A DNA stretch of 26,795 bases, taken from positions 711-27,505 of IMG/VR virus record IMGVR_UViG_3300030329_000676; one strand, 5' to 3'. Position numbers and translations under genes: made by a program. The notes beneath the pieces are model-generated. The model did no database searches. It had not been told where the DNA came from and saw only the letters and a list, made by a program, of their open reading frames with translations. This document shows, one piece after another, positions 4,206 through 26,795 of the stretch; position 1 is the first letter of the stretch; every line of letters starts with the position of its first letter. Source of the stretch: a virus.

Positions 4206-4234
4206 AGTATATACGAACTGATTCGTAATGTCAA
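4206..4234 (-). promoter_or_regulatory. Strong sigma70-type promoter for SSB with palindromic spacer
   Basis: On the minus strand TTGACA (4234-4229), a 17-bp spacer and TATACT (4211-4206) form a near-consensus promoter in the gap between DNA polymerase and SSB. The predicted start is near 4199, about 80 nt before the SSB start codon. The spacer contains ACGAA-TCAG-TTCGT (4213-4226), a perfect 5-bp inverted repeat. AATCAG and CTGATT also form an overlapping inverted repeat around the -10. Either could be an operator that a repressor would use to block RNA polymerase. Confidence 0.8.
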
Positions 4235-13013: not shown

Positions 13014-13052
13014 TACTTTCTTTACTCCATGCTTAGTGTTGGACTTCCCCAT
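12945..13052 (-). CDS. Small basic protein, YAKSLQN family copy 2 (35 aa)
   Basis: A 35-residue product, MGKSNTKHGVKKVNTYAKSL then QNNKYRQRVVSNALT. It is paralogous to the 40-residue protein at 12622-12744 but ends before the basic tail. It overlaps the DnaJ-type zinc-finger gene by 31 bp in another frame. The start is the only ATG in frame; a GGAG-type site is not evident, so it may be a degenerating copy. Confidence 0.6.
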   Translation of the reverse strand: MGKSNTKHGVKKVNTYAKSLQNNKYRQRVVSNALT

Positions 13053-13282
13053 GATAAATTCTTACCCTCTAATATTTCAAGTTTAATAATATCTTTGTAG
13101 TTTTCACGAACCTCTTGTTCGTTTTCATAACGCCACTCTTCCTCAACAAAATAGCTCTCGCCTGTACCTTCGCACTCTCTACATACCTCTTCTCTTTTGC
13201 TTGGGTTATTGTCAGTAGTATAGCCTTCACCGTTGCACCACTTACACCATGTCACTATGTGCCACCATTTATTATCAGTCAT
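13022..13282 (-). CDS. DnaJ-type zinc-finger miniprotein
   Basis: An 86-residue protein with two CxxCxGxG motifs: CKWCNGEG (Cys13, Cys16) and CRECEGTG (Cys34, Cys37). This is the pattern of the cysteine-rich domain of the DnaJ co-chaperone, reduced to one zinc site. There is no J domain. It may bind a protein substrate or partner in DNA replication. A DnaJ-like zinc domain has been reported inside the DNA polymerase of a marine podovirus (HMO-2011, from memory), so a free-standing form here is of interest. AGGAG sits upstream of the start with normal spacing. The C-terminus is acidic then neutral. Confidence 0.8.
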   Translation of the reverse strand: MTDNKWWHIVTWCKWCNGEGYTTDNNPSKREEVCRECEGTGESYFVEEEWRYENEQEVRENYKDIIKLEILEGKNLSWGSPTLSME

Positions 13283-17184: not shown

Positions 17185-17220
17185 AAAAAAACCCCCAAGA
17201 ACTTTTCAGTTCTTAGGGGT
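17185..17220 (-). terminator. Strong intrinsic terminator of first early gene
   Basis: On the minus strand ACCCCTAAGAACT and AGTTCTTGGGGGT form a 13-bp stem with one G-T pair and a GAAA tetraloop, followed by seven T residues. It begins 8 bp after the stop of the 209-residue gene. Confidence 0.95.
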
Positions 17221-17228
17221 CTATTTTA

Positions 17229-17858
17229 TTACGCGGATTTTTTATGAAGTTTTACGTTTTTGTCTATTATTCCCATAGACTTCAAAACGGTATTGGCAGA
17301 ATCTTGATGATGTTCAAGAGTCGCGGCCTCGAATAACTTATCAATAAAAGGCTTCAACTTTTCTTGATCTAAATAATCCAATTTATTGGCAACCAAGTTT
17401 ATAACCTCAATTTTTACGGCCTCGACTTCTGGAACGGGTGACAGGTCAAGTTTCTGACTTTTCTTAGGGTTGGCGTTACGTTTCCGAGTTTGGAATTGTT
17501 GAGCCTTTTCCTTTTCCCCAAGTTTCCTATTCCTAATAAAATCGTCAGCCTTTTTATTTGGGTTATCAATTAACCACTGGTTTAACTCACCGTCATCTTT
17601 TAACAGTTTGTTAATTAAGGCTTTAATCCATTTAGCTTTTGATTTATCAAGCGAACCTAAAACAGCATTGAGAATATATTTCCTCTCAACACCTTTAACA
17701 GACTTTAGAACATTATAAAATTTCACTATAAAATCTGTATTTCTTTCGGTTGCCAAATTTTCAGCTTTCATGGCCTTCGTATTAAACTCTAGGATTGATT
17801 TAATACTAGCTTTAATTTTAGCACTAGGTTTGTATTCTTTTTTGGTTTTCTTAACCAT
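17229..17858 (-). CDS. Hypothetical lysine-rich early protein
   Basis: A 209-residue protein, strongly basic and mostly helical. The N-terminus is very Lys-rich (MVKKTKKEYKPSAKIKAS), followed by a helical core with VERKYILNAVLGSLDKSKAK, a basic linker (RKRNANPKKSQK near 125-136) and a C-terminal helical domain. No family recognised. As the first gene leftward from the control region, with its own promoter, a long structured leader and a strong terminator, it is probably the first and a tightly controlled early product, perhaps a host takeover or DNA-binding protein. The ribosome site is a weak GAGAGAGA. It has somewhat more C and G at third positions than the small genes beyond it. Confidence 0.8.
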   Translation of the reverse strand: MVKKTKKEYKPSAKIKASIKSILEFNTKAMKAENLATERNTDFIVKFYNVLKSVKGVERKYILNAVLGSLDKSKAKWIKALINKLLKDDGELNQWLIDNPNKKADDFIRNRKLGEKEKAQQFQTRKRNANPKKSQKLDLSPVPEVEAVKIEVINLVANKLDYLDQEKLKPFIDKLFEAATLEHHQDSANTVLKSMGIIDKNVKLHKKSA

Positions 17859-18036
17859 AATATATCTCTCTCTATTTAGTTGAAAATTAAGATATAACTA
17901 CTCACAAGCGTGGGTAGCTTTTGGGGTATTAAATGCCTCATTGCGTAAGTCGCGTAATCGCTAAGAAACTCCGCGCAAGTCGTGGGCTAGGCCGTGGCCT
18001 AGTGATAGTCCCCAAATAGGTCAGCTATCAAATTCA
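17859..18036 (-). promoter_or_regulatory. Structured 5' leader of the first early gene
   Basis: The predicted 178-nt leader between promoter 18043-18070 and ATG 17858 holds several strong pairings. TTTGGGG with CCCCAAA (17920-17926 with 18010-18016) closes an 83-nt domain. CTAGGCC with GGCCTAG (17987-17993 with 17996-18002) is a perfect 7-bp hairpin. CTACTCAC with GTGGGTAG (17898-17905 with 17910-17917) is an 8-bp hairpin near the gene. A 12-mer GCGTAAGTCGCG recurs as GCGCAAGTCGTG. The nested arrangement looks like a structured RNA that could control expression. It matches no riboswitch I know. Confidence 0.5.
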
Positions 18037-18042
18037 ACATTG

Positions 18043-18070
18043 ATTATACAGCATTGTCGTAGGGTTGCAA
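18043..18070 (-). promoter_or_regulatory. Leftward early promoter
   Basis: TTGCAA (18070-18065), 16-bp spacer and perfect TATAAT (18048-18043) on the minus strand, with a predicted start near 18036. It is the main candidate for early leftward transcription. A long hairpin lies immediately upstream of the -35. Confidence 0.7.
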
Positions 18071-18077
18071 GTTAAGT

Positions 18078-18114
18078 CTAAAAAATAATAGCCCATGCAT
18101 GGACTATTTTTAGA
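18078..18114. terminator. Possible bidirectional terminator or operator hairpin
   Basis: TCTAAAAA and TTTTTAGA flank an inner stem AATAGCCCAT/ATGGACTATT with one mismatch. T runs follow the stem on both strands. It sits directly upstream of the leftward promoter and is an inverted copy of the hairpin at 17004-17025. It could insulate the two arms or bind a regulator. Confidence 0.5.
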
Positions 18115-18261
18115 TGACGATATTAGCTAGGCCGTTGCTAGTCGTGAATGATGATTTTCTATGTTGTCAGCATTGGGAATGTCGCGGAATTGCTAGGCCG
18201 TTGTGGCATTATGTGCATATGGTGGATGATAAACAATAGAGTAATCAGCAATTTACTACAA

Positions 18262-18330
18262 AACAATTTGAAAATAAATTGTTGGGACTCCGATTGTTGG
18301 GGAATAAACTGTTGGGTAATCAACAATTAG
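18262..18330. repeat. 15-bp-phased iteron array
   Basis: A/T-rich 15-bp units start at 18278, 18293 and 18308, each with the core TTGTTGGG or CTGTTGGG, followed by the inverted CAACAAT at 18321. The first unit is the right arm of a perfect inverted repeat AACAATTT-(6)-AAATTGTT (18262-18283). The array resembles iterons or operator arrays. About 70 bp downstream begins an AT-rich stretch (about 18400-18500) with imperfect repeats of AAAGCTACTTT. Together these are compatible with a replication origin or a switch region; neither is proven. Confidence 0.6.
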
Positions 18331-18493
18331 GGGGTGGGGAAAAAAACTCGGCAGTTACTTCGCAAAGGATAGTATCTAAGGTGGAGGAAAATTATCAAAA
18401 ATAAAATCAATAAAAATATTTTTTAAAAGCGGCTATAAAGCTACTTTAAAGTTACTTTAATTTATATTATTATTATTTTTATTAATATTATAT

Positions 18494-18522
18494 TTGCATA
18501 CTAGTACTTTTTAGTGTATAAT
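18494..18522 (+). promoter_or_regulatory. Rightward late promoter 1 (terminase)
   Basis: TTGCAT (18494-18499), 17-bp spacer and TATAAT (18517-18522), continuing as AGTACT. The predicted start, 7 nt after the -10, falls on the A of the terminase ATG (18529), so its mRNA would be leaderless. It shares its extended sequence with the promoters at 20075 and 25623. Confidence 0.85.
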
Positions 18523-18528
18523 AGTACT

Positions 18529-20073
18529 ATGAATATACTAGAAAGCACTAATGAGTATCTACAACCCTTTATTAATTTAAAAGGATTGTTAGAACAAAAA
18601 GTAAACCAACAAGCTAATACAGATTTTATTACATTTGTACGAATGATGGCTCCTATGCTGGTATCTGATTGGAGAATGGGTCGTCATATAGAAGTTATAT
18701 CCGATAAGTTAAAAGACCTAGAGGATGGTACAATAAAAAGGCTGATGGTATTTCTACCACCACGCTCTTCAAAGTCTGTTATCTGCTCAAAGCTCTTTCC
18801 TGCTTGGTATATTGGTAGAAATCCTGAACATGAAATACTGACTGTATCCCATAGTGACCAGTTATCCTCTGATTTTGGCAGATCTGTAAGGGATATTGTC
18901 AATACAGAAGAATTTCAAAAAATATTTAAAGGAGTCTCTCTCAGGAGCGACGTAAGAGCCGCTGGCAAGTGGAAGACAAACCAGAATGGGACGTACTATG
19001 CTGCTGGTGTACGCTCTCAAATAGCTGGACGTGGCGCACATATTGCTATATTGGACGATGTAATGTCTGAAGAGGACGCAATCAGTGCATCTGGTAGGAG
19101 ATATATTAAAGAATGGTATCCTGCTGGACTAAGAACCCGTATTATGCCCAATGGTTCTATAGTTATAATCAATACACGTTATCATTATGATGACCTGTGC
19201 GGCTGGTTACTAAAACAACAGGAGAATATGGGAGAGTTTGAAACAATCCCTTGGGAAGTTATCAGAATACCTGCATGGGTGGACGATGATGCGTCAGAAC
19301 TCTTGGGACTCCCTGTAGGCTCCAGCTATTTTCCAGAGTGGAAGAGTGATGATGTCCTGAGAATGGATGAGAGCGAGATTAAAGCCAGTAATGGTAGCCG
19401 ATACTGGAATGCTCTCTACATGCAAGACCCCACTCCAGAAGAAGGTGGTATCATCAAAAAGAAATGGCTCAAGTATTGGGAATACGAGGAGCCGCCAACA
19501 TGTGATTTCATAGTTCAAACCTATGATACAGCATTCTCTACCAAGACTACGGCTGATTACAGTGTCATACAGACATGGGGTATATTCTCCATGTATAATC
19601 AGGATGAGATTGGGTATGAGGATTTTGTACCGCACATGATATTATTGGGGAATATACGTGGCAGGTTTGAATATCCAGAACTGAGAAAGCTGGCACAGAA
19701 ACTCTACAATGAACACCAGCCAGATGTATGTATGGTGGAGAAGAAGGCTAGTGGACAGTCTCTAATACAGGATATGCGTAGAGGTGGACTACCTGTTATG
19801 GAGTATAATCCAGATAGAGATAAGGTATCTAGGGTATATGCAGCCTCGCCTATCATAGAAGCTGGTAGAATGTGGATACCCAATAACAAGAAATGGTCAG
19901 ATGAACTAATTGAAGAATTACTAAGATTTCCCAATGCAGCACATGATGACCAAGTGGATGCCATGACAATGGCTATACACTATATGAAAGAGTCTTGGCA
20001 CCTAACACACCCCGACGATCCACATTATGATGATGAAGTAACAGAAAAGAAAAAAACTTATTGGACCTTCTGA
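18529..20073 (+). CDS. terL: Terminase large subunit
   Basis: The ATP-driven DNA packaging motor with headful nuclease, 514 residues. The ATPase domain has a Walker A variant LPPRSSKS (76-83) and Walker B AILDD (173-177). The C-terminal RNase H-like nuclease shows YDTAF (Asp333), MVEKK (Glu404) and HDDQVDA (Asp473, Asp474, Asp477) as metal ligands. All key residues are intact. The frame extends to GTG 18514, but that codon is part of the promoter -10 region; ATG 18529 is used here and has no ribosome binding site. No small terminase subunit is adjacent. It starts the late rightward operon. Confidence 0.96.
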   Translation: MNILESTNEYLQPFINLKGLLEQKVNQQANTDFITFVRMMAPMLVSDWRMGRHIEVISDKLKDLEDGTIKRLMVFLPPRSSKSVICSKLFPAWYIGRNPEHEILTVSHSDQLSSDFGRSVRDIVNTEEFQKIFKGVSLRSDVRAAGKWKTNQNGTYYAAGVRSQIAGRGAHIAILDDVMSEEDAISASGRRYIKEWYPAGLRTRIMPNGSIVIINTRYHYDDLCGWLLKQQENMGEFETIPWEVIRIPAWVDDDASELLGLPVGSSYFPEWKSDDVLRMDESEIKASNGSRYWNALYMQDPTPEEGGIIKKKWLKYWEYEEPPTCDFIVQTYDTAFSTKTTADYSVIQTWGIFSMYNQDEIGYEDFVPHMILLGNIRGRFEYPELRKLAQKLYNEHQPDVCMVEKKASGQSLIQDMRRGGLPVMEYNPDRDKVSRVYAASPIIEAGRMWIPNNKKWSDELIEELLRFPNAAHDDQVDAMTMAIHYMKESWHLTHPDDPHYDDEVTEKKKTYWTF

Positions 20074-20074
20074 T

Positions 20075-20103
20075 TTGCATTCAGAGTAAAAGTATGATAT
20101 AAT
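20075..20103 (+). promoter_or_regulatory. Rightward late promoter 2
   Basis: TTGCAT (20075-20080), 17-bp spacer and TATAAT (20098-20103), with TG in the extended -10 position. It begins 2 bp after the terminase stop. The 14-mer AGTATGATATAATA is identical to that in promoter 3. The predicted start near 20110 serves the holin-like gene. Confidence 0.85.
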
Positions 20104-20156
20104 AGTATAAACAAAAATAGGTTTTATATGGTAACAATCTAATAGGGAGACAGACA

Positions 20157-20450
20157 ATGGAGTGGTTAATTCAAACGCTTGGAGCTAAAACATGTTGTAT
20201 TCTTTCCAGTGGAGTAGGCGGTGCAACCAATGTATTAACAAAAAAGAATTTTAATTGGACCGCTCTAAAAGATGTCGGTCTTGCAATTATAGTGGGGTGG
20301 ATAGCTGCAGAGTGGTTTATACCACCCATAATGAAACATTGGGCCTTGGATATGACTTGGGGTCCAGCTATAGCATTCATGATTGGATATTGTGGTATTA
20401 GATTACTACCAAAGGCAGAGGAAATTATTACAGCAAGGTTATCGAAGTAA
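20157..20450 (+). CDS. Holin-like membrane protein
   Basis: A 97-residue membrane protein. Hydrophobic segments lie at about 12-25 (weak), 39-57 (VGLAIIVGWIAAEWFIPP) and 68-84 (WGPAIAFMIGYCGIRLL). The layout, a basic segment, a Gly-rich central span and a final span with a short basic tail, resembles class I or II phage holins that form lethal membrane holes at the end of infection. No endolysin is next to it in the window, so another membrane role is possible. AGGGAGA precedes the start with good spacing. It is the first gene after late promoter 2. Confidence 0.55.
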   Translation: MEWLIQTLGAKTCCILSSGVGGATNVLTKKNFNWTALKDVGLAIIVGWIAAEWFIPPIMKHWALDMTWGPAIAFMIGYCGIRLLPKAEEIITARLSK

Positions 20451-20459
20451 GGGGAAATT

Positions 20460-22307
20460 ATGCCAGGATTATCAGATTTAAAAATAAAAATTAAAAATCA
20501 ACCTCATGGTCTTGCGTGGATTAATGATAAGGAAAGATCTGTCCTGAAAGCAATGGGTGGTTCTGGCAAAAGTGGCCCTATGGGTATTCCTGCTTATGAC
20601 TTTACTGACGAAGATGATGAAGATATTGGTGGTGGTTTAGGCGGTCAAGGTGGTCAAGGTGGTCAAGGCGGTCAAGGTGGTCAAGGTAATGACTCTGATC
20701 CATATGGAGAAGGTATTGACGAAGACCCATTTGGCGGTAAAGCAGATAAAGGTGAAAAAGGTGGAGGCGATTGGACTGATCCTGATGATTTATGGAATAT
20801 AACCTATACTCCTCCAAATAAAGCTACAGGTGATCCTGGTGGATGGGGAAGAGCTATCAAAGGTTTAAGAGATACACCCCATGTAGAAAAAGGATTAGAA
20901 AAATATATAGGTAATTATATTAGATCACATCCAATGGTTAAAGGAATAGTTAGTCTTGTTGAGGGAATTCCTGGATTTCCAAAAGGTAAGCCTCTTTCTG
21001 TTCGAGATGTAGAAGCGTTGGATAGAATATCATGGGCTGAGATATCTGGCCCTCCTAAAGACCCTGATAGAGATGGAATAAACGATGGTTCTGAAGATGA
21101 AGAAATATTATTAAAAGCTGTAGAAGAAGAAGAAAAACTAACGCCTATGCAAAAGTATTTCAGGGATAAGGAAAAGACAAAAGATAATCCTGATAAATTT
21201 GGTGATAATCAAATGACACCTGAAGAAAGATTGATTACATCATTAGGAATAGAAAATAGAATTATACAACCATTTAATGAATGGTTAGCAACACAGGAAG
21301 AAAGAGTAAGAAATTTACCAAGATGGTTACAAGCAACACAGTATCGTGAATATGCAAAGAATAGAACAAGTCCTGCATCATCTTATCAACCAGTAACAGC
21401 ACCAGTTAGAAAAACTGAATCAATTACAGATAAGACACCAGCTACTACAGAATTATTTAAACGTCTTGGTATGAAAACTGGTGGTTATATTAATGATAAT
21501 ATAGTTGAAAGGCAAATGGGTGGTCAAGCAACTCCCATGATGGGACAAGCCACACAAGCTCTAATGCCGCAGACTCAAGGTTTTAATCAATCCCTAATGG
21601 CACAACCTGCAGGATTTGGTATGCAAAGACCTATGGCTCCAACAGGACTACCAGCTATGCGAAGACCTATACCTCCAACAGGACTACAAGGTATATATCC
21701 TAGACCTGGTGGCCCAACTGGACCTAATTTAGGTGGACAGCTTTTGCCGAGTATTGGTAACTTTCCCGAACCTATGATTCGTCCACTTTCAGATAAGCCA
21801 ATAACATATCCTCCTGATGGTACAAGTATAACTTTTCCTCCTATTTTACCACCGTGGCCTCCTAAACCAGATTATCCAATTCCACCTTGGCCTCCTATTC
21901 CAGAGCCTCCACCTCCACCGCCGCCTCCTCCAGAGCCTGAAATCATATATGATCCAGAACGTGAGGCTGCTGCTAAAAAAGCGGCTGAACAACTACAGGC
22001 ACGTAGGGTTGCTGAACTAGGTGAAGCTCCTCAAACAAGAGCAGAGCGTGAAGCATTACAAACTAGTGGTGGTTTTTACAGAGATGAAGAAGGTCAAGTA
22101 AGAGATGCACAAGGTAATTTACAAGAAGATTTTGGATTTGATTATGTAGCTCCACCGCCACCTGATCCTTATGATCCACCTGATACACCAGATACACCTC
22201 CACCTCCTAAACCAGAACCAGAGCCTGAACCAGAGCCAGAGCCAGAGCCTGTTATTGTAGAAGAAGAAGACAATGAAGGTGAAGACCCTTATGGTGAACC
22301 CTGGTGA
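20460..22307 (+). CDS. Gly- and Pro-rich low-complexity structural protein
   Basis: A 615-residue protein between terminase/holin and portal. It starts with a short conserved-looking segment (LAWINDKERSVLKAMGGSGK, 18-37) that I recall from marine phage proteins at this locus. Then come an acidic stretch, a (GGQ)x5 tract (61-75), a partly ordered middle (about 110-320), a Met/Gln/Gly/Pro-rich region (350-470), a polyproline segment and a (PE)n tail. Most of it should be disordered. The position suggests a head or injected protein. Neither catalytic motifs nor membrane spans are visible. AAGGGGAAATT precedes the start. A +1 frame continues past the stop with similar composition, see findings. 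Confidence 0.75.
   Translation: MPGLSDLKIKIKNQPHGLAWINDKERSVLKAMGGSGKSGPMGIPAYDFTDEDDEDIGGGLGGQGGQGGQGGQGGQGNDSDPYGEGIDEDPFGGKADKGEKGGGDWTDPDDLWNITYTPPNKATGDPGGWGRAIKGLRDTPHVEKGLEKYIGNYIRSHPMVKGIVSLVEGIPGFPKGKPLSVRDVEALDRISWAEISGPPKDPDRDGINDGSEDEEILLKAVEEEEKLTPMQKYFRDKEKTKDNPDKFGDNQMTPEERLITSLGIENRIIQPFNEWLATQEERVRNLPRWLQATQYREYAKNRTSPASSYQPVTAPVRKTESITDKTPATTELFKRLGMKTGGYINDNIVERQMGGQATPMMGQATQALMPQTQGFNQSLMAQPAGFGMQRPMAPTGLPAMRRPIPPTGLQGIYPRPGGPTGPNLGGQLLPSIGNFPEPMIRPLSDKPITYPPDGTSITFPPILPPWPPKPDYPIPPWPPIPEPPPPPPPPPEPEIIYDPEREAAAKKAAEQLQARRVAELGEAPQTRAEREALQTSGGFYRDEEGQVRDAQGNLQEDFGFDYVAPPPPDPYDPPDTPDTPPPPKPEPEPEPEPEPEPVIVEEEDNEGEDPYGEPW
20640..20684 (+). repeat. Five 9-bp repeats encoding GGQ
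   Basis: Five tandem units of GG(T/C)GGTCAA in frame. Near-identity of units makes slippage-driven length variation likely. Confidence 0.9.
22212..22250 (+). repeat. Six-bp repeats encoding Pro-Glu
   Basis: Six and a half tandem CC(A/T)GA(A/G) units that encode alternating Pro and Glu near the protein C-terminus. Confidence 0.85.
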
Positions 22308-22350
22308 AAGTGGTGAAGAAGATCATTATGGTAACTAAGAAAGATAAATA

Positions 22351-24825
22351 ATGGCAACAGAACGTAATCCTTTTGATATGATTCCTGAAGCAGAGACTAA
22401 TGTTATTGCAATGGTCCCTGAAGAACAATCCAATGTGTCTATTGAGATTGATCCTACTGATGGTGGTGTTATTGTAGATTTTTCTTCAGAGTCTGTAGAG
22501 ATGGAAGCTTCAGAAGAAATATCTGAATGGTATGGAGATCTTAGTGAAGACCTAGATGGAGAAGACCTTCAAGATATATCTGCAGATGTTATTGAAAATT
22601 ATAATGCAGATAAAGATAGCAGGGGTGAGTGGGAGTCTATGTTTGAAAGAGGCTTTGACCTTCTTGGTCTAAAGCTGGAAGAAGGTTCAGAACCATTTCA
22701 AGGAGCTTGTACGGCTGTACATCCACTGTTAATTGAATCGGCTGTTAAGTTTCAATCAAAAGCTACACAGGAATTATTTCCTTCTGGTGGCCCTGTAAAG
22801 GCAAACATTCTTGGTGCTGCAACACCAGAGAAAGAAATGCAAGCCAACAGGGTTCAGAACTTTATGAACTATCAGCTTACAGAACAGATGCCAGAGTACT
22901 TTGATGAATTTGAAAGAATGCTTTTTCATCTCCCTCTCATAGGTTCAGCATTTAAAAAGATTTATTATAGTTCAACTTTTAAAAGACCAGTATCAGAGTT
23001 TATACCTATAGACCAGTTCTATGTATCTTACTATGCTACTGATTTAAGAAATGCAGACCGCTATACACATGTGATATATAAAAGTCCTGTAGAATTACAA
23101 CAGGATATTAGAGCAGGTGTTTACAAAGATGTAGACCTACCTTCTCCATCACAGCTTTCTTCTAGTGGTTTTGCAACTAAGATAGATAATATTTTGGGTA
23201 TATCTCCATCATATGATAGTGACCCACAATATGTATTACTGGAGCAACACTGTTATCTTGAGTTAGAAGAAGAAGATGTTGCTTGTCCATACATTGTAAC
23301 TGTAGAAGAACAGTCAAGACAAGTTTTAAGTATTCGTAGAAACTACGAGCAGGACGACCCGAATAAAGAGAAGCGAAGCCATTTCGTTCACTATAGGTTT
23401 GTACCTGGTTTTGGATTCTATGGATTGGGCCTTATCCATTTCCTTGGTAATCTCACCATGTCGGCAACTGCTGCGATGCGCTCCCTCATAGACGCTGGAC
23501 AGTTCGCCAATTTACCAGGCGGTTTTAAGGCAAAGGGAGTAAGGATGGTTGGTGATAATGAACCAATCGCTCCTGGCGAGTTCAAGGAGGTCGAAGCAAC
23601 TGGTATTGATTTATCTAGGGCTATAGTTCCCCTGCCCTATAAAGAGCCTTCCTCAACGCTCTTCCAGATGCTTGGGTTCGTAACTACTGCTGGTCAGAAG
23701 TTTGCGGATAGTACTGAGCAAGTTATCTCGGATGCTGCCTCCTATGGACCCGTTGGAACAACAATGGCATTGCTGGAAGCTTCAAGTAAGTTCTTCTCTG
23801 CAATCCATAAAAGATTACATAAATCACAAAGGGACGAGTTCAGAATACTGGCACAGATAGACCATGATTATTTACCTAATGAATATCCTTATGAAGTACC
23901 GTTTGAAGATAGAAACATATTTAAAGCTGACTTTGATGGACGAGTGGATATTGTACCTGTTTCTGATCCTAACATTCCTTCTAATGCCCATCGTATGATG
24001 TTGGCAAACATGGCTCTGCAGATGGCACAGCAGTCGCCACCAGGTATGTTTAACATTGAGGAACTCAATAGGACTATTCTCAATGCAGCTAACATGCCTA
24101 ACCTAGAACAGATACTGCCACCCAAGATTGAGCCACAACCACTTGATCCTGTATCTGATATTATGGCAGTAACCAAAGGTTTACCTATTGCAGCTTTTCC
24201 TGCACAGAACCATGATGCTCATATACAAGTAAAGATGGCATATCTTCAAGACCCTGCCAATGGTGCTAATCCTATAATGCAAAGGATTAAACCTGTACTT
24301 GAATCTAATATACAAGAACATTCTGTATTAAAATATCAAGAACAGGTAAGTGGTGTTACAGAACAAATGATGCAACAAGTACCACCTGAACAGGCACAAA
24401 ATCCACAAGCTATTGAAATGGCAATGGCACAGGCTGCACAACAGGTTACGCAAGCCAATCAACAGCCACCACCGCCAACACCAGAACAACAGCTTGTTAT
24501 GCTTGAACAGGAAAAAGTTAAACTTCAGCAACAGAAACTTCAATCTGATACGGCTGTACAAGCTGCTGAACTTGAACTCAAGAATAAGAAACTTGAACTT
24601 GAAGAAAATGAACAGATACTGGAGATGATTGAGTCTGGTGCTACCGATAACTTTAAGCGTGAAAAAGCTGAAGCAGATAGAGAATCAAAGAAAGAATTAG
24701 CATCAATGAATAATCTTACTAAGATTAAAGTAGAAGAATTAAAAGATGATAAAGATATTGAAGATACTAAACTTAATGTATTGTCAAGAATGGCAGTTGA
24801 AGAAATGAAAAAAGGAGAAGACTAA
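22351..24825 (+). CDS. Portal protein, P22-type
   Basis: Forms the dodecameric ring at the capsid vertex through which DNA enters and leaves; 824 residues, in the range of the large P22-like portals (P22 gp1 is 725). Recognised from the N-terminal segment WESMFERGFDLLGL, then FQGACTAVHPLLIESAVKF (about 119-137), ADRYTHVIY and the conserved RSLIDAGQFANLPGG and VGTTMALLE regions. The C-terminal 200 residues are Gln/Pro-rich followed by a long coiled coil (VKLQQQKLQSD onward), which fits the barrel or a scaffold contact. The first 60 residues are acidic and probably disordered. The ribosome site is weak (AAGA). Part of the conserved core (around 23341-23760) is much richer in GC than the rest. 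Confidence 0.88.
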   Translation: MATERNPFDMIPEAETNVIAMVPEEQSNVSIEIDPTDGGVIVDFSSESVEMEASEEISEWYGDLSEDLDGEDLQDISADVIENYNADKDSRGEWESMFERGFDLLGLKLEEGSEPFQGACTAVHPLLIESAVKFQSKATQELFPSGGPVKANILGAATPEKEMQANRVQNFMNYQLTEQMPEYFDEFERMLFHLPLIGSAFKKIYYSSTFKRPVSEFIPIDQFYVSYYATDLRNADRYTHVIYKSPVELQQDIRAGVYKDVDLPSPSQLSSSGFATKIDNILGISPSYDSDPQYVLLEQHCYLELEEEDVACPYIVTVEEQSRQVLSIRRNYEQDDPNKEKRSHFVHYRFVPGFGFYGLGLIHFLGNLTMSATAAMRSLIDAGQFANLPGGFKAKGVRMVGDNEPIAPGEFKEVEATGIDLSRAIVPLPYKEPSSTLFQMLGFVTTAGQKFADSTEQVISDAASYGPVGTTMALLEASSKFFSAIHKRLHKSQRDEFRILAQIDHDYLPNEYPYEVPFEDRNIFKADFDGRVDIVPVSDPNIPSNAHRMMLANMALQMAQQSPPGMFNIEELNRTILNAANMPNLEQILPPKIEPQPLDPVSDIMAVTKGLPIAAFPAQNHDAHIQVKMAYLQDPANGANPIMQRIKPVLESNIQEHSVLKYQEQVSGVTEQMMQQVPPEQAQNPQAIEMAMAQAAQQVTQANQQPPPPTPEQQLVMLEQEKVKLQQQKLQSDTAVQAAELELKNKKLELEENEQILEMIESGATDNFKREKAEADRESKKELASMNNLTKIKVEELKDDKDIEDTKLNVLSRMAVEEMKKGED

Positions 24826-25004
24826 TGATGAAAAAAGGTAAGGGTTATCCAGAGCATGTAAAGGATACATCAAAAACTTTTGGTAATCCATTTAAAAAAG
24901 ATGTTTGGGGTCCACGTAGCATGAGAAGCGCACTCAATGAGTGGGATGGTTCTTCTTATGAAATGCCTAAACCTTTAAAAAGTACTAAGAGGGCTACCTC
25001 TTAA
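24825..25004 (+). CDS. Hypothetical small protein (59 aa)
   Basis: A 59-residue protein read by hand, MMKKGKGYPEHVKDTSKTFG to KSTKRATS. It begins in a TAATG junction with the portal stop and has AAAGGAGA upstream; a second ATG follows at once. Basic, with NPFKKDVWGPRS. No family recognised. It is likely a small head-associated protein. Confidence 0.75.
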   Translation: MMKKGKGYPEHVKDTSKTFGNPFKKDVWGPRSMRSALNEWDGSSYEMPKPLKSTKRATS

Positions 25005-25009
25005 TTCCA

Positions 25010-25198
25010 ATGGATATTTGGGATGAAGTCGTGCAGGGCTTCAATAGTGAAATCGAAAGATTAAAGACTTCACTAGGAGATGGTTCTGCTGAAGACTATG
25101 CACATTACAGACAAGTTGTAGGTTCAATACAAGGTTTGGAATGGGCAAGAAATAATTTAACAGATATTATTAAGAAAAGGATGTATGAAGAGGATTAA
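25010..25198 (+). CDS. Hypothetical small helical protein
   Basis: A 62-residue protein, MDIWDEVVQGFNSEIERLKT onward, helical and acidic with HYRQVVGSIQGLEWARNNL. The pattern is like short phage proteins found beside portals. It lacks a clear ribosome site and lies 5 bp after the preceding stop. Function unknown. Confidence 0.7.
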   Translation: MDIWDEVVQGFNSEIERLKTSLGDGSAEDYAHYRQVVGSIQGLEWARNNLTDIIKKRMYEED

Positions 25199-25621
25199 AT
25201 GAGACAGGTGCAGATGGGTAATGCGTTGAAAAACGATGAGTGGATTGACGCAGATGATATAGAGTTAAAGAGTTTACCAGAATTACCTGGTTTTCACGTT
25301 CTAATAAAACCAGTATCGGTAAAGAGTAAAACAAAAGGTGGTATATTTATACCAGATTCTACCAAGGATGATATTAGTTATCTCACAACAGTAGGTGAGG
25401 TAATTGGATTAGGAGAGTTAGCATATAAAGATGAAAACAAATTTCCTAACGGTGCTTGGTGTAATGTAGGAGACTATGTATGTTATGGTAAACATGCTGG
25501 TACAAAACTTTTTTATCAAGGTGTCAGACTAATATTACTTTTTGATGACCAGATAATTATGAGAGTTGATGATCCTAAAGATCTTGATCCTACATTTAAT
25601 TTAGGAAAAGGATCATCTTGA
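25199..25621 (+). CDS. GroES-like co-chaperonin
   Basis: A 140-residue protein of the GroES (Cpn10) family. The family pattern is clear: PGFHVLIKPVSVKSKTKGG (30-48), IFIPDST, VGEVIGLGE, a GDYVCYGKHAGT segment and a final IILLFDDQIIMRV-like strand. It is longer than E. coli GroES (97) by an N-terminal extension of about 25 residues, an insertion before GAWCNVGDYV and a C-terminal tail. Like T4 gp31 it may replace host GroES so that GroEL can fold the large capsid protein. No GroEL is present. The position between portal and scaffold supports a role in head assembly. The start is immediately after the previous stop, with AAGAGGA upstream. Confidence 0.85.
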   Translation: MRQVQMGNALKNDEWIDADDIELKSLPELPGFHVLIKPVSVKSKTKGGIFIPDSTKDDISYLTTVGEVIGLGELAYKDENKFPNGAWCNVGDYVCYGKHAGTKLFYQGVRLILLFDDQIIMRVDDPKDLDPTFNLGKGSS

Positions 25622-25622
25622 T

Positions 25623-25651
25623 TTGCAAAAGCATTAAAAGTATGATATAAT
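25623..25651 (+). promoter_or_regulatory. Rightward late promoter 3
   Basis: TTGCAA (25623-25628), 17-bp spacer and TATAAT (25646-25651), with TG in the extended -10 position. It begins 2 bp after the GroES-like stop. The predicted start near 25658 serves the scaffold-like gene and the gene beyond it. Confidence 0.85.
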
Positions 25652-25706
25652 AGTATAGCAATTAATTTTACGTAATACGTTTGTTTCGTAAACAACGGAG
25701 AAAAAA

Positions 25707-26669
25707 ATGGCAGAAGATGATAATTGGGGAACTGTAGAAGTTCCAAATAATACTAATGAAGATAAAGTAGAATATGAAATTGAAGAAAAGGTTGTAGAAG
25801 CAGCACAGCCTGAACCAGAGCCTGAAGTTAAGAAAGAACCTGAAGTTACAACTAAGGAAGAACCTAAAGAACTTGAAGGTATAGAAACGGCTGGAGCGCA
25901 AAAAAGAATTAGACAACTTGTTAAACAACGTAAAGAACGTGAAGAACAGGTTGCTTTACTTCAAAAACAAAATGAAGAATTAAATAAACAATTATATGCT
26001 AAACATAATGAAGTTAATGAGATTAATAAAGTTAGTCTTACAGCTTCAGAAAAACAATTAGAAGATAAAATTCAATTAGCTAGAGCAGTTTATCTTGAAG
26101 CTTTTGAAGAAGGAGAAAAAGAAAAACTTCTCAATGCACAGGAAATGCTTAATGAAGCACAAAATGATTTAAAAGCTGTTACATCAGCAAAATTAAATTA
26201 TGAAAAGCATGAACAGAAAGTAGCACAACAACAACAACCAGTACAACAACAAGCAGTTCCACAACAATCTGTAACAGATCCTAGAGCAGAAGAGTGGGCT
26301 TCCAATAATGATTGGTTTGGTAAAGATAATATTATGACCGCTGCTGCTCTTGCAATAGATACGGATTTAAAAGAAGAAGGATATAGTCCAAACGATGATG
26401 AATTTTATCAGGAAATTGATAACAGAATTAAAACAGCTTTTCCACATAAGTTTGGAGAAGCTCAAGAACGTATGCAGGAAAATACGTCAAGTCCTGCTCA
26501 AGTGGTGTCGGGGAGTTCTCGCTCCTCTCCGAGTTCTAAAAACAAAGTTAAGCTCACGCAAGAAGATATGAGATTAGCTGAGAAATGGAATATACCCCTT
26601 GAAACGTATGCGGCCCAAAAGCTTAAAGTAACAAAAGCTGATGGCGAGTATACAGATGTTTATAAATAG
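25707..26669 (+). CDS. Putative head scaffolding protein
   Basis: A 320-residue protein with the features of a phage scaffold: an acidic, Pro/Glu-rich N-terminus, a long coiled coil (about 60-170, RKEREEQVALLQKQNEELNK onward), a Gln-rich linker (172-190) and a C-terminal basic helical segment (KNKVKLTQEDMRLAEKWNIP, about 277-296). The C-terminal basic helix would bind the coat protein. Gene order portal, chaperonin, scaffold, next head gene is typical. No protease motif is seen. GGAG lies upstream of the start, in a leader driven by late promoter 3. Confidence 0.8.
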   Translation: MAEDDNWGTVEVPNNTNEDKVEYEIEEKVVEAAQPEPEPEVKKEPEVTTKEEPKELEGIETAGAQKRIRQLVKQRKEREEQVALLQKQNEELNKQLYAKHNEVNEINKVSLTASEKQLEDKIQLARAVYLEAFEEGEKEKLLNAQEMLNEAQNDLKAVTSAKLNYEKHEQKVAQQQQPVQQQAVPQQSVTDPRAEEWASNNDWFGKDNIMTAAALAIDTDLKEEGYSPNDDEFYQEIDNRIKTAFPHKFGEAQERMQENTSSPAQVVSGSSRSSPSSKNKVKLTQEDMRLAEKWNIPLETYAAQKLKVTKADGEYTDVYK

Positions 26670-26686
26670 TAGCGTGGGAGAACAAA

Positions 26687-26795
26687 ATGAATACAACACG
26701 AAATGAAACACGTAGTGACAGTTTGAGAGAACAGAATACAAGAGAAGAAGAATGGACCTTTGAGGAACCCGATGCCCTCTCCATACCAGATGTGG
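26687..26795 (+). CDS. N-terminus of next head-region gene (partial)
   Basis: The first 36 codons of a gene, MNTTRNETRSDSLREQNTRE then EEWTFEEPDALSIPDV, open to the window edge. GGGAG precedes the ATG. The acidic segment ending in IPDV recalls short proteins before the major capsid gene in related phages, but the family cannot be told from so little. Confidence 0.7.
   Translation, partial: MNTTRNETRSDSLREQNTREEEWTFEEPDALSIPDV

Follow-up and report, generated by a model that had tools for sequence, protein, structure and literature searches.

Known promoter classes with which the sites analyzed here can be compared are the sigma70 extended -10 promoters (TRTGnTATAAT), the T4 middle promoters, in which a MotA box (TGCTTtA) is centred near -30 at 12–13 bp from the -10, and the T4 late promoters, which are of the TATAAATA type, have no -35 element and are served by the phage sigma factor gp55. 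The lambda cI mRNA transcribed from PRM is leaderless and offers a comparison for the start of the terminase gene. A search of the literature found no mapped promoters for the phage family of the present sequence, and two papers on marine phages of the same kind of host contain predicted sigma70 promoters only (PMC10504331, PMC9004378).

The window, by which we mean the whole stretch of 26,795 nucleotides that was analyzed, comprises bases 711–27505 of a 27,505-base virus record. The minus-strand arm encodes a DNA polymerase A, a primase-helicase, a Gp2.5-like ssDNA-binding protein, a Cas4-type exonuclease and a DNA methyltransferase. The plus-strand arm carries, in this order, the terminase large subunit (terL), a 97-aa hydrophobic protein, a 615-aa proline-rich protein, the portal, GroES and a scaffold-like protein (Table 1). 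The isolates nearest in TerL are the pelagiphages HTVC027P and HTVC023P together with phage 023Pt_psg01, at ~40% amino-acid identity, and the window is best explained as DNA of a tailed marine phage that is a distant relative of HTVC023P-type pelagiphages. IMG/VR holds 57 close terL-relative loci (73–99% identity) and one distant match. A search of the genome collection (host contigs) for a relative of terL found none, and a search for tRNA genes likewise had no match. In the relative G005, the gene that follows promoter 2 (L204 16207–16608) encodes a protein of the HlyC-type acyltransferase family (E=5e-27), an odd occupant of a phage head region. An 86-aa zinc-ribbon/DnaJ-like protein of the window (13022–13282) gives a weak Q-like antitermination match (E=0.0017) that is probably due to its cysteine motif alone.

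Table 1. Positions of the predicted promoters, genes and associated elements in the window.
Feature	Position	Strand	Remarks
Leftward-arm predicted promoter before the ssDNA-binding-protein gene, TTGACA-N17-TATACT	4206..4234	-	TTGACA in five relatives, TATACT in four
GCTACTTTAAAGTTACTTTAA palindrome/repeat 5' of promoter 1	18440..18461		Centre at about -76 to -87; most close relatives have it near -82
Predicted promoter 1 (terL), TTGCAT-N17-TATAAT	18494..18522	+	Predicted start 18529, the A of the terL ATG
Terminase large subunit gene terL	18529..20073	+	PHROG 38, E=6e-112
Predicted promoter 2, TTGCAT-N17 (extended -10 TATGA)-TATAAT	20075..20103	+	Predicted start 20110
97-aa hydrophobic protein, first gene 3' of promoter 2	20157..20450	+	Without family match
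Portal protein gene, in the gene run that follows promoter 2	22351..24825	+	PHROG 1216
GroES-like co-chaperonin	25199..25621	+	Stop TGA one base 5' of promoter 3
Predicted promoter 3, TTGCAA-N17 (extended -10 TATGA)-TATAAT	25623..25651	+	Predicted start 25658
Conserved leader element, crossing helices TTACG..CGTAA and CGTTtGT..ACAACG	25668..25700	+	Ends at the Shine-Dalgarno GGAG of the scaffold-like gene
Scaffold-like gene, first gene 3' of promoter 3	25707..26669	+	PHROG 28737, function unknown in PHROG

An earlier, sequence-only reading had noted three exact copies of one motif with 17-bp spacers at 18494, 20075 and 25623, and these are confirmed base for base. Read directly from the sequence, site 1 consists of TTGCAT (18494–18499) and TATAAT (18517–18522), site 2 of TTGCAT (20075–20080) and TATAAT (20098–20103), and site 3 of TTGCAA (25623–25628) and TATAAT (25646–25651), with 17 bp between the boxes in each. 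AGTA stands directly 3' of all three motifs, and AAAAGTATGATATAATAGTATA is common to sites 2 and 3. The stop codon of the preceding gene is present at promoters 2 and 3, as had been stated, in the form of the TGA of terL (20071–20073) and that of groES (25619–25621), with each promoter beginning one base past it; the overlap of site 1 with the start of terL and the leader element at site 3 had been overlooked. Exact matches to TTGCA(T/A)-17 bp-TATAATAGTA were the three named sites only, all on the plus strand, both in the window and in the whole 27,505-base record. Allowing up to three mismatches in the window gave five matches, three of them exact, against 2.7 expected by chance. A family profile, whose training set includes the sites, scored them at 34–41 bits, whereas 10 shuffled versions of the record reached 2.1 at most.

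The promoter type was found in 21 of 22 relatives by an exact-pattern search of their whole records, in which the reversed control pattern had no match. A profile scan detected exactly three strong copies in each of four relatives of 55–61 kb (G001, G002, G004 and G005), with 32–46 bits and all on the late strand; the next-best score in these genomes was at most 17.9, and the maxima in shuffled genomes did not exceed about 10. The scan profile was trained on the same phage family, and independent support comes from the exact-pattern search of the 22 relatives. Placement by tblastn reveals that the copies are syntenic, at the start of terL, at the end of terL and in the gap between groES and the scaffold-like gene, and a further relative (G003) has weaker versions at the same three places. 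Scores of at least 13/16 were reached in 30/34, 31/37 and 29/32 distinct sequences for sites 1, 2 and 3, respectively, against 21/4000 shuffled regions, the sequences being related and hence non-independent.

In distant relatives (L100, L107, L108, L113 and L145), the pattern occurs between helicase and polA, inside a conserved small reading frame (MKKIILAI...), and these matches were rejected as promoters. Their position within a coding sequence would lend itself to the view that the three copies of the window are a chance or coding-driven resemblance, but this origin is effectively refuted by the three exact syntenic copies, by the occurrence in dozens of relatives, by the non-coding positions and by the lack of any reversed-control match. 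The expectation that copies precede late genes only was borne out in the window's clade. It failed in one related clade, where a copy stands on the replication strand before an Hsp20 gene and after a B12-type ribonucleotide reductase (L166 9421, L112 reverse, L093 reverse and G027 7046), and has the appearance of a real fourth position.

Sites 2 and 3 of one genome are more alike than they are across genomes (17.6 against 14.8 of 26 variable columns), a likeness that none of 5000 shuffles attained, relatedness being uncorrected. In L024, the two are identical over 33 bases (the regions equivalent to 20075–20110 and 25623–25658 of the window). Gene conversion, or coevolution with a regulator, could underlie the within-genome likeness.

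Across the relatives, TATAAT and the TTG with which the -35 begins are near-invariant, and the other three -35 bases drift: TTGCAT is commonest, followed by TTGCAA, TTGGAT, TTGTAC, TTGTGA, TTGGGA and TTGTAT. TTGACA appears at the trio sites once among the relatives (site 2 of L098). Sites 2 and 3 keep AAGTATG(G/A) before TATAAT, which constitutes an extended -10 TRTGn, and site 1 keeps TAGTG instead, so that a TG one base 5' of the -10 is found at sites 2 and 3 only. The likeness to sigma70 extended -10 promoters resides in TATGA-TATAAT at sites 2 and 3 of the window, in TATGG-TATAAT in many relatives, in the consensus -10 and in the weak -35. By contrast with that class, the trio also retains the TTG half of the -35 at exactly 17 bp, and its site 1 has TAGTG, not TATGn. 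With T4 middle promoters, the trio shares a TTGC-containing element upstream of a consensus -10, but this element, TTGCAT, is variable and occupies the -35 place, 17 bp from the -10, unlike the MotA box. T4 late promoters are different again, as the -10 of the trio is TATAATAG.

The sequence-only reading had suggested a phage-specific late class that needs a phage activator or an altered host sigma factor. The first part is sustained insofar as one promoter type heads the late arm, with three syntenic late-strand copies per near-complete relative and TTGACA promoters on the opposite strand only. The second is unsupported, given a -35 fixed as TTG only, TATGn at sites 2 and 3, a core shared with T4-like phages and no Sigma70_r2 protein. 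The latter was sought in six relatives of 55–61 kb and not found, in a search that did not target gp55 itself. A search of six relatives for a T7-type RNA polymerase had no match, nor did it have any in the control genomes, and no such polymerase is among the 25 Pfam families listed for G005. We regard it as unlikely that a phage activator or sigma-remodelling protein reads the TTGCA(T) -35 region and makes the promoters late, in the manner of MotA/AsiA at T4 middle promoters. Such a protein would fit the prevalence of TTGCAT, the near-absence of TTGACA at the trio while it is kept in the opposite arm, the covariation of sites 2 and 3 within genomes and the palindrome near -82 of promoter 1. 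This palindrome is, however, found at site 1 only, no regulator was identified, an identical core exists in unrelated T4-like phages, and the -35 drifts freely beyond its TTG (TTGTGA, TTGGGA, TTGTAC, TTGGAT). Because of this drift, the trio is read as a half -35 combined with a strong -10, and not as a -35 activator site.

A scan of 2.9 million viral contigs with AAAAGTATGNTATAATAGTATA retrieved 36 stretches, of which 29 belong to the window's family and lie nearly all at site 2 or 3. Among the remaining seven, four stand before uvsY, with a -35 of TTTACA at 17 bp, in a T4-like phage whose genes include that for the late sigma gp55. The 22-bp core is also carried by the T4-like contig L182, which has gp33 and gp32, and, with TTGACA, by L186. 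The uvsY promoter of T4-like marine contigs (L208, L218, L219 and L228) has the identical AAAAGTATGGTATAATAGTATA core and the 17-bp spacing, whereas its -35 differs, it serves a recombination gene rather than a packaging gene, and the ATG follows 8 nt after the -10. Because T4 late promoters are of the TATAAATA type (PMC9004378), the core site upstream of uvsY is best read as a host-sigma70 promoter. It is mainly the presence of the core in these unrelated T4-like phages that leads us to prefer the host holoenzyme over a phage-specific class.

TTGACA had been described as dominating the leftward arm. This is correct in kind, since TTGACA promoters with a -10 of at least 5/6 are all on the minus strand (15 sites, non-independent, in six genomes; 3 in the window record), but the evidence is thin and comes down to one conserved promoter. 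Only that of the ssDNA-binding-protein gene (4234–4206) recurs in relatives; over six genomes (the window and five relatives), TTGACA is present in 6/6 and TATACT in 5/6. The picture of two predicted promoter classes, one per arm, holds. In G001 (19072–19037) and G002 (21506–21471), both taken in late-strand-up orientation, a minus-strand gene of 66 aa in the leftward arm has its ATG 6 nt after TTGACA-N17-TA(G/T)AAT, and is possibly a second leaderless gene.

An account that differs from the preferred host-sigma70 reading on timing alone, and otherwise overlaps it, is that the promoters are strong but ordinary and play no part in timing, lateness arising from post-replication gene dosage, relief from an early repressor or an antiterminator. 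The near-consensus sequence, the lack of any phage RNA polymerase or sigma among those sought, and the palindromes and repeats between the divergent arms, which could be operators, are compatible with it. Given that it offers no reason why the late arm avoids TTGACA almost completely, and that no repressor or antiterminator was shown, we hold it to be possible though rather less than probable.

The ATG of terL lies 6 nt past the end of TATAAT in the window, and this spacing is fixed. In a search that permitted 4–10 nt, the distance was 6 nt (n=15) or 7 nt (n=12) in 27/27 distinct terL loci of 76–100% identity; it is also 6 in L178, an incomplete sequence outside the 27. In the most diverged loci (L116, L122, L124 and L127), the bases between TATAAT and ATG have changed and the spacing is kept; the frame of L116 and L122 opens such a short way upstream that the terL ATG is its first start. 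The first terL codons have diversities of 0.22, 0.17 and 0.34 at codon positions 1, 2 and 3, with a coding signal from codon 2; they are protein-constrained, and translation would therefore begin at this ATG. No Shine-Dalgarno sequence precedes it: the bases there are ttttagtgtataatagtact, with a best chance match of 3 nt. Such sequences are present for g20157, g24825, groES and the scaffold-like gene. A -10 ending 5–8 nt 5' of the start codon, the arrangement expected of a leaderless gene, is found at terL, the only gene so arranged in all of G000–G005, and is lacking in L047–L049 (73% identity). Matches to the terL-start pattern in L235 and L243 were rejected, as they belong to other phages, in which the ATG opens a frame of just 3 codons (L235) or one of 225 aa (L243).

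Because TATAAT ends 6 or 7 nt before the ATG in all 27 relatives, the terL mRNA should be leaderless and start on the A of the AUG. As in lambda cI from PRM, the -10 would place the start at the AUG, and a Shine-Dalgarno sequence is absent; the case predicted here differs in that the gene is that of the terminase large subunit, the first of the late arm, and that the arrangement is family-wide.

The leader element between promoter 3 and the ATG of the scaffold-like gene is strongly conserved, even where the promoter has decayed (G003). Its first helix covaries from TTACG/CGTAA to GCACG/CGTGC, ATACG/CGTAT and AACG/CGTT, and its second from CGTTtGT/ACAACG to CGTTtAG/CTAACG. Over 21 sequences, which are also those from which the structure was derived, 95% of cells pair and four pairs are changed on both sides; on each measure, 0–1 of 500 shuffles did as well, and 30–50% of cells pair in slid controls. 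Minimum-energy folding does not favour the element (z = +0.6), and an Rfam search of 17800–26795 gave no match. The two helices cross and their 3' strands abut directly, so that the element could be either a pseudoknot under strain or a pair of alternative hairpins. Independently of the promoters, it may regulate head assembly at the level of translation.

Upstream of promoter 1, CTTTAAAG-type palindromic repeats lie 60–85 bp from the terL start; the position near -82 is kept in most close relatives and the sequence changes. The palindrome of the window is a possible operator. Helical phasing of the promoter-1 palindromes was considered and rejected; as their centres (-82, -72, -70.5, -73.5, -63.5 and -58.5) are not cleanly phased, we make no claim of an activator. 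The ~670-bp gap between the divergent arms contains three direct repeats, GCTAGGCCGT(G/T)G(C/T), at 17986, 18126 and 18192, which are possibly origin or regulator sites. A G-run, GGGGGTGGGGAAAAAAAC or GGGGGTAGGGGGAAAAAC, upstream of terL (18329–18346) recurs in many relatives. A strong intrinsic terminator with 15 pairs and a T-run is located on the minus strand at 17189–17222, just after a 209-aa gene (17229–17858), and suggests that this gene forms a separate early unit.

Taken with the conservation, synteny and strand bias observed above, we consider it likely that the trio represents host sigma70-holoenzyme promoters that head the packaging/head arm, with stacked output and a leaderless terL. 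Host RNA polymerase would recognize a -10 that is a perfect TATAAT, together with half a -35 (TTG and three loose bases) at 17 bp and, at sites 2 and 3, the extended -10, and would initiate at approximately 18529, 20110 and 25658. Promoter 1 would serve terL, promoter 2 would add the portal/GroES run, and promoter 3 would add the scaffold-like gene and those downstream. As the starts are nested, transcription would therefore sum from terL to portal/GroES to the scaffold-like and head genes, and output would climb toward the genes required in most copies. TerL, of which few copies are needed, would be made from a leaderless message, and terminase output is probably low. Late timing may come from gene dosage tied to replication, from an early repressor, or from a regulator that acts at the -82 palindrome of promoter 1. 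A purely host-driven view does leave unexplained that TTGACA is nearly absent from the trio (one relative) yet kept in the leftward ssDNA-binding-protein promoter. The covariation of sites 2 and 3 and the lack of TATGn at promoter 1 of the window are further counterpoints. More elaborate, and in our judgement quite improbable, is a packaging timer, in which leaderless terL was selected so that terminase is made only when late ribosomes favour a 5'-AUG, and the late arm is turned on by a phage regulator that works through the -82 palindrome and the promoter type common to the trio.

On the host-sigma70 reading, the trio pinpoints where late-arm transcription is predicted to start in a widespread group of marine phages. 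A packaging gene kept leaderless over 76–100% protein identity would be unusual, and a leaderless terL would offer a test of when and how infection makes use of leaderless translation.
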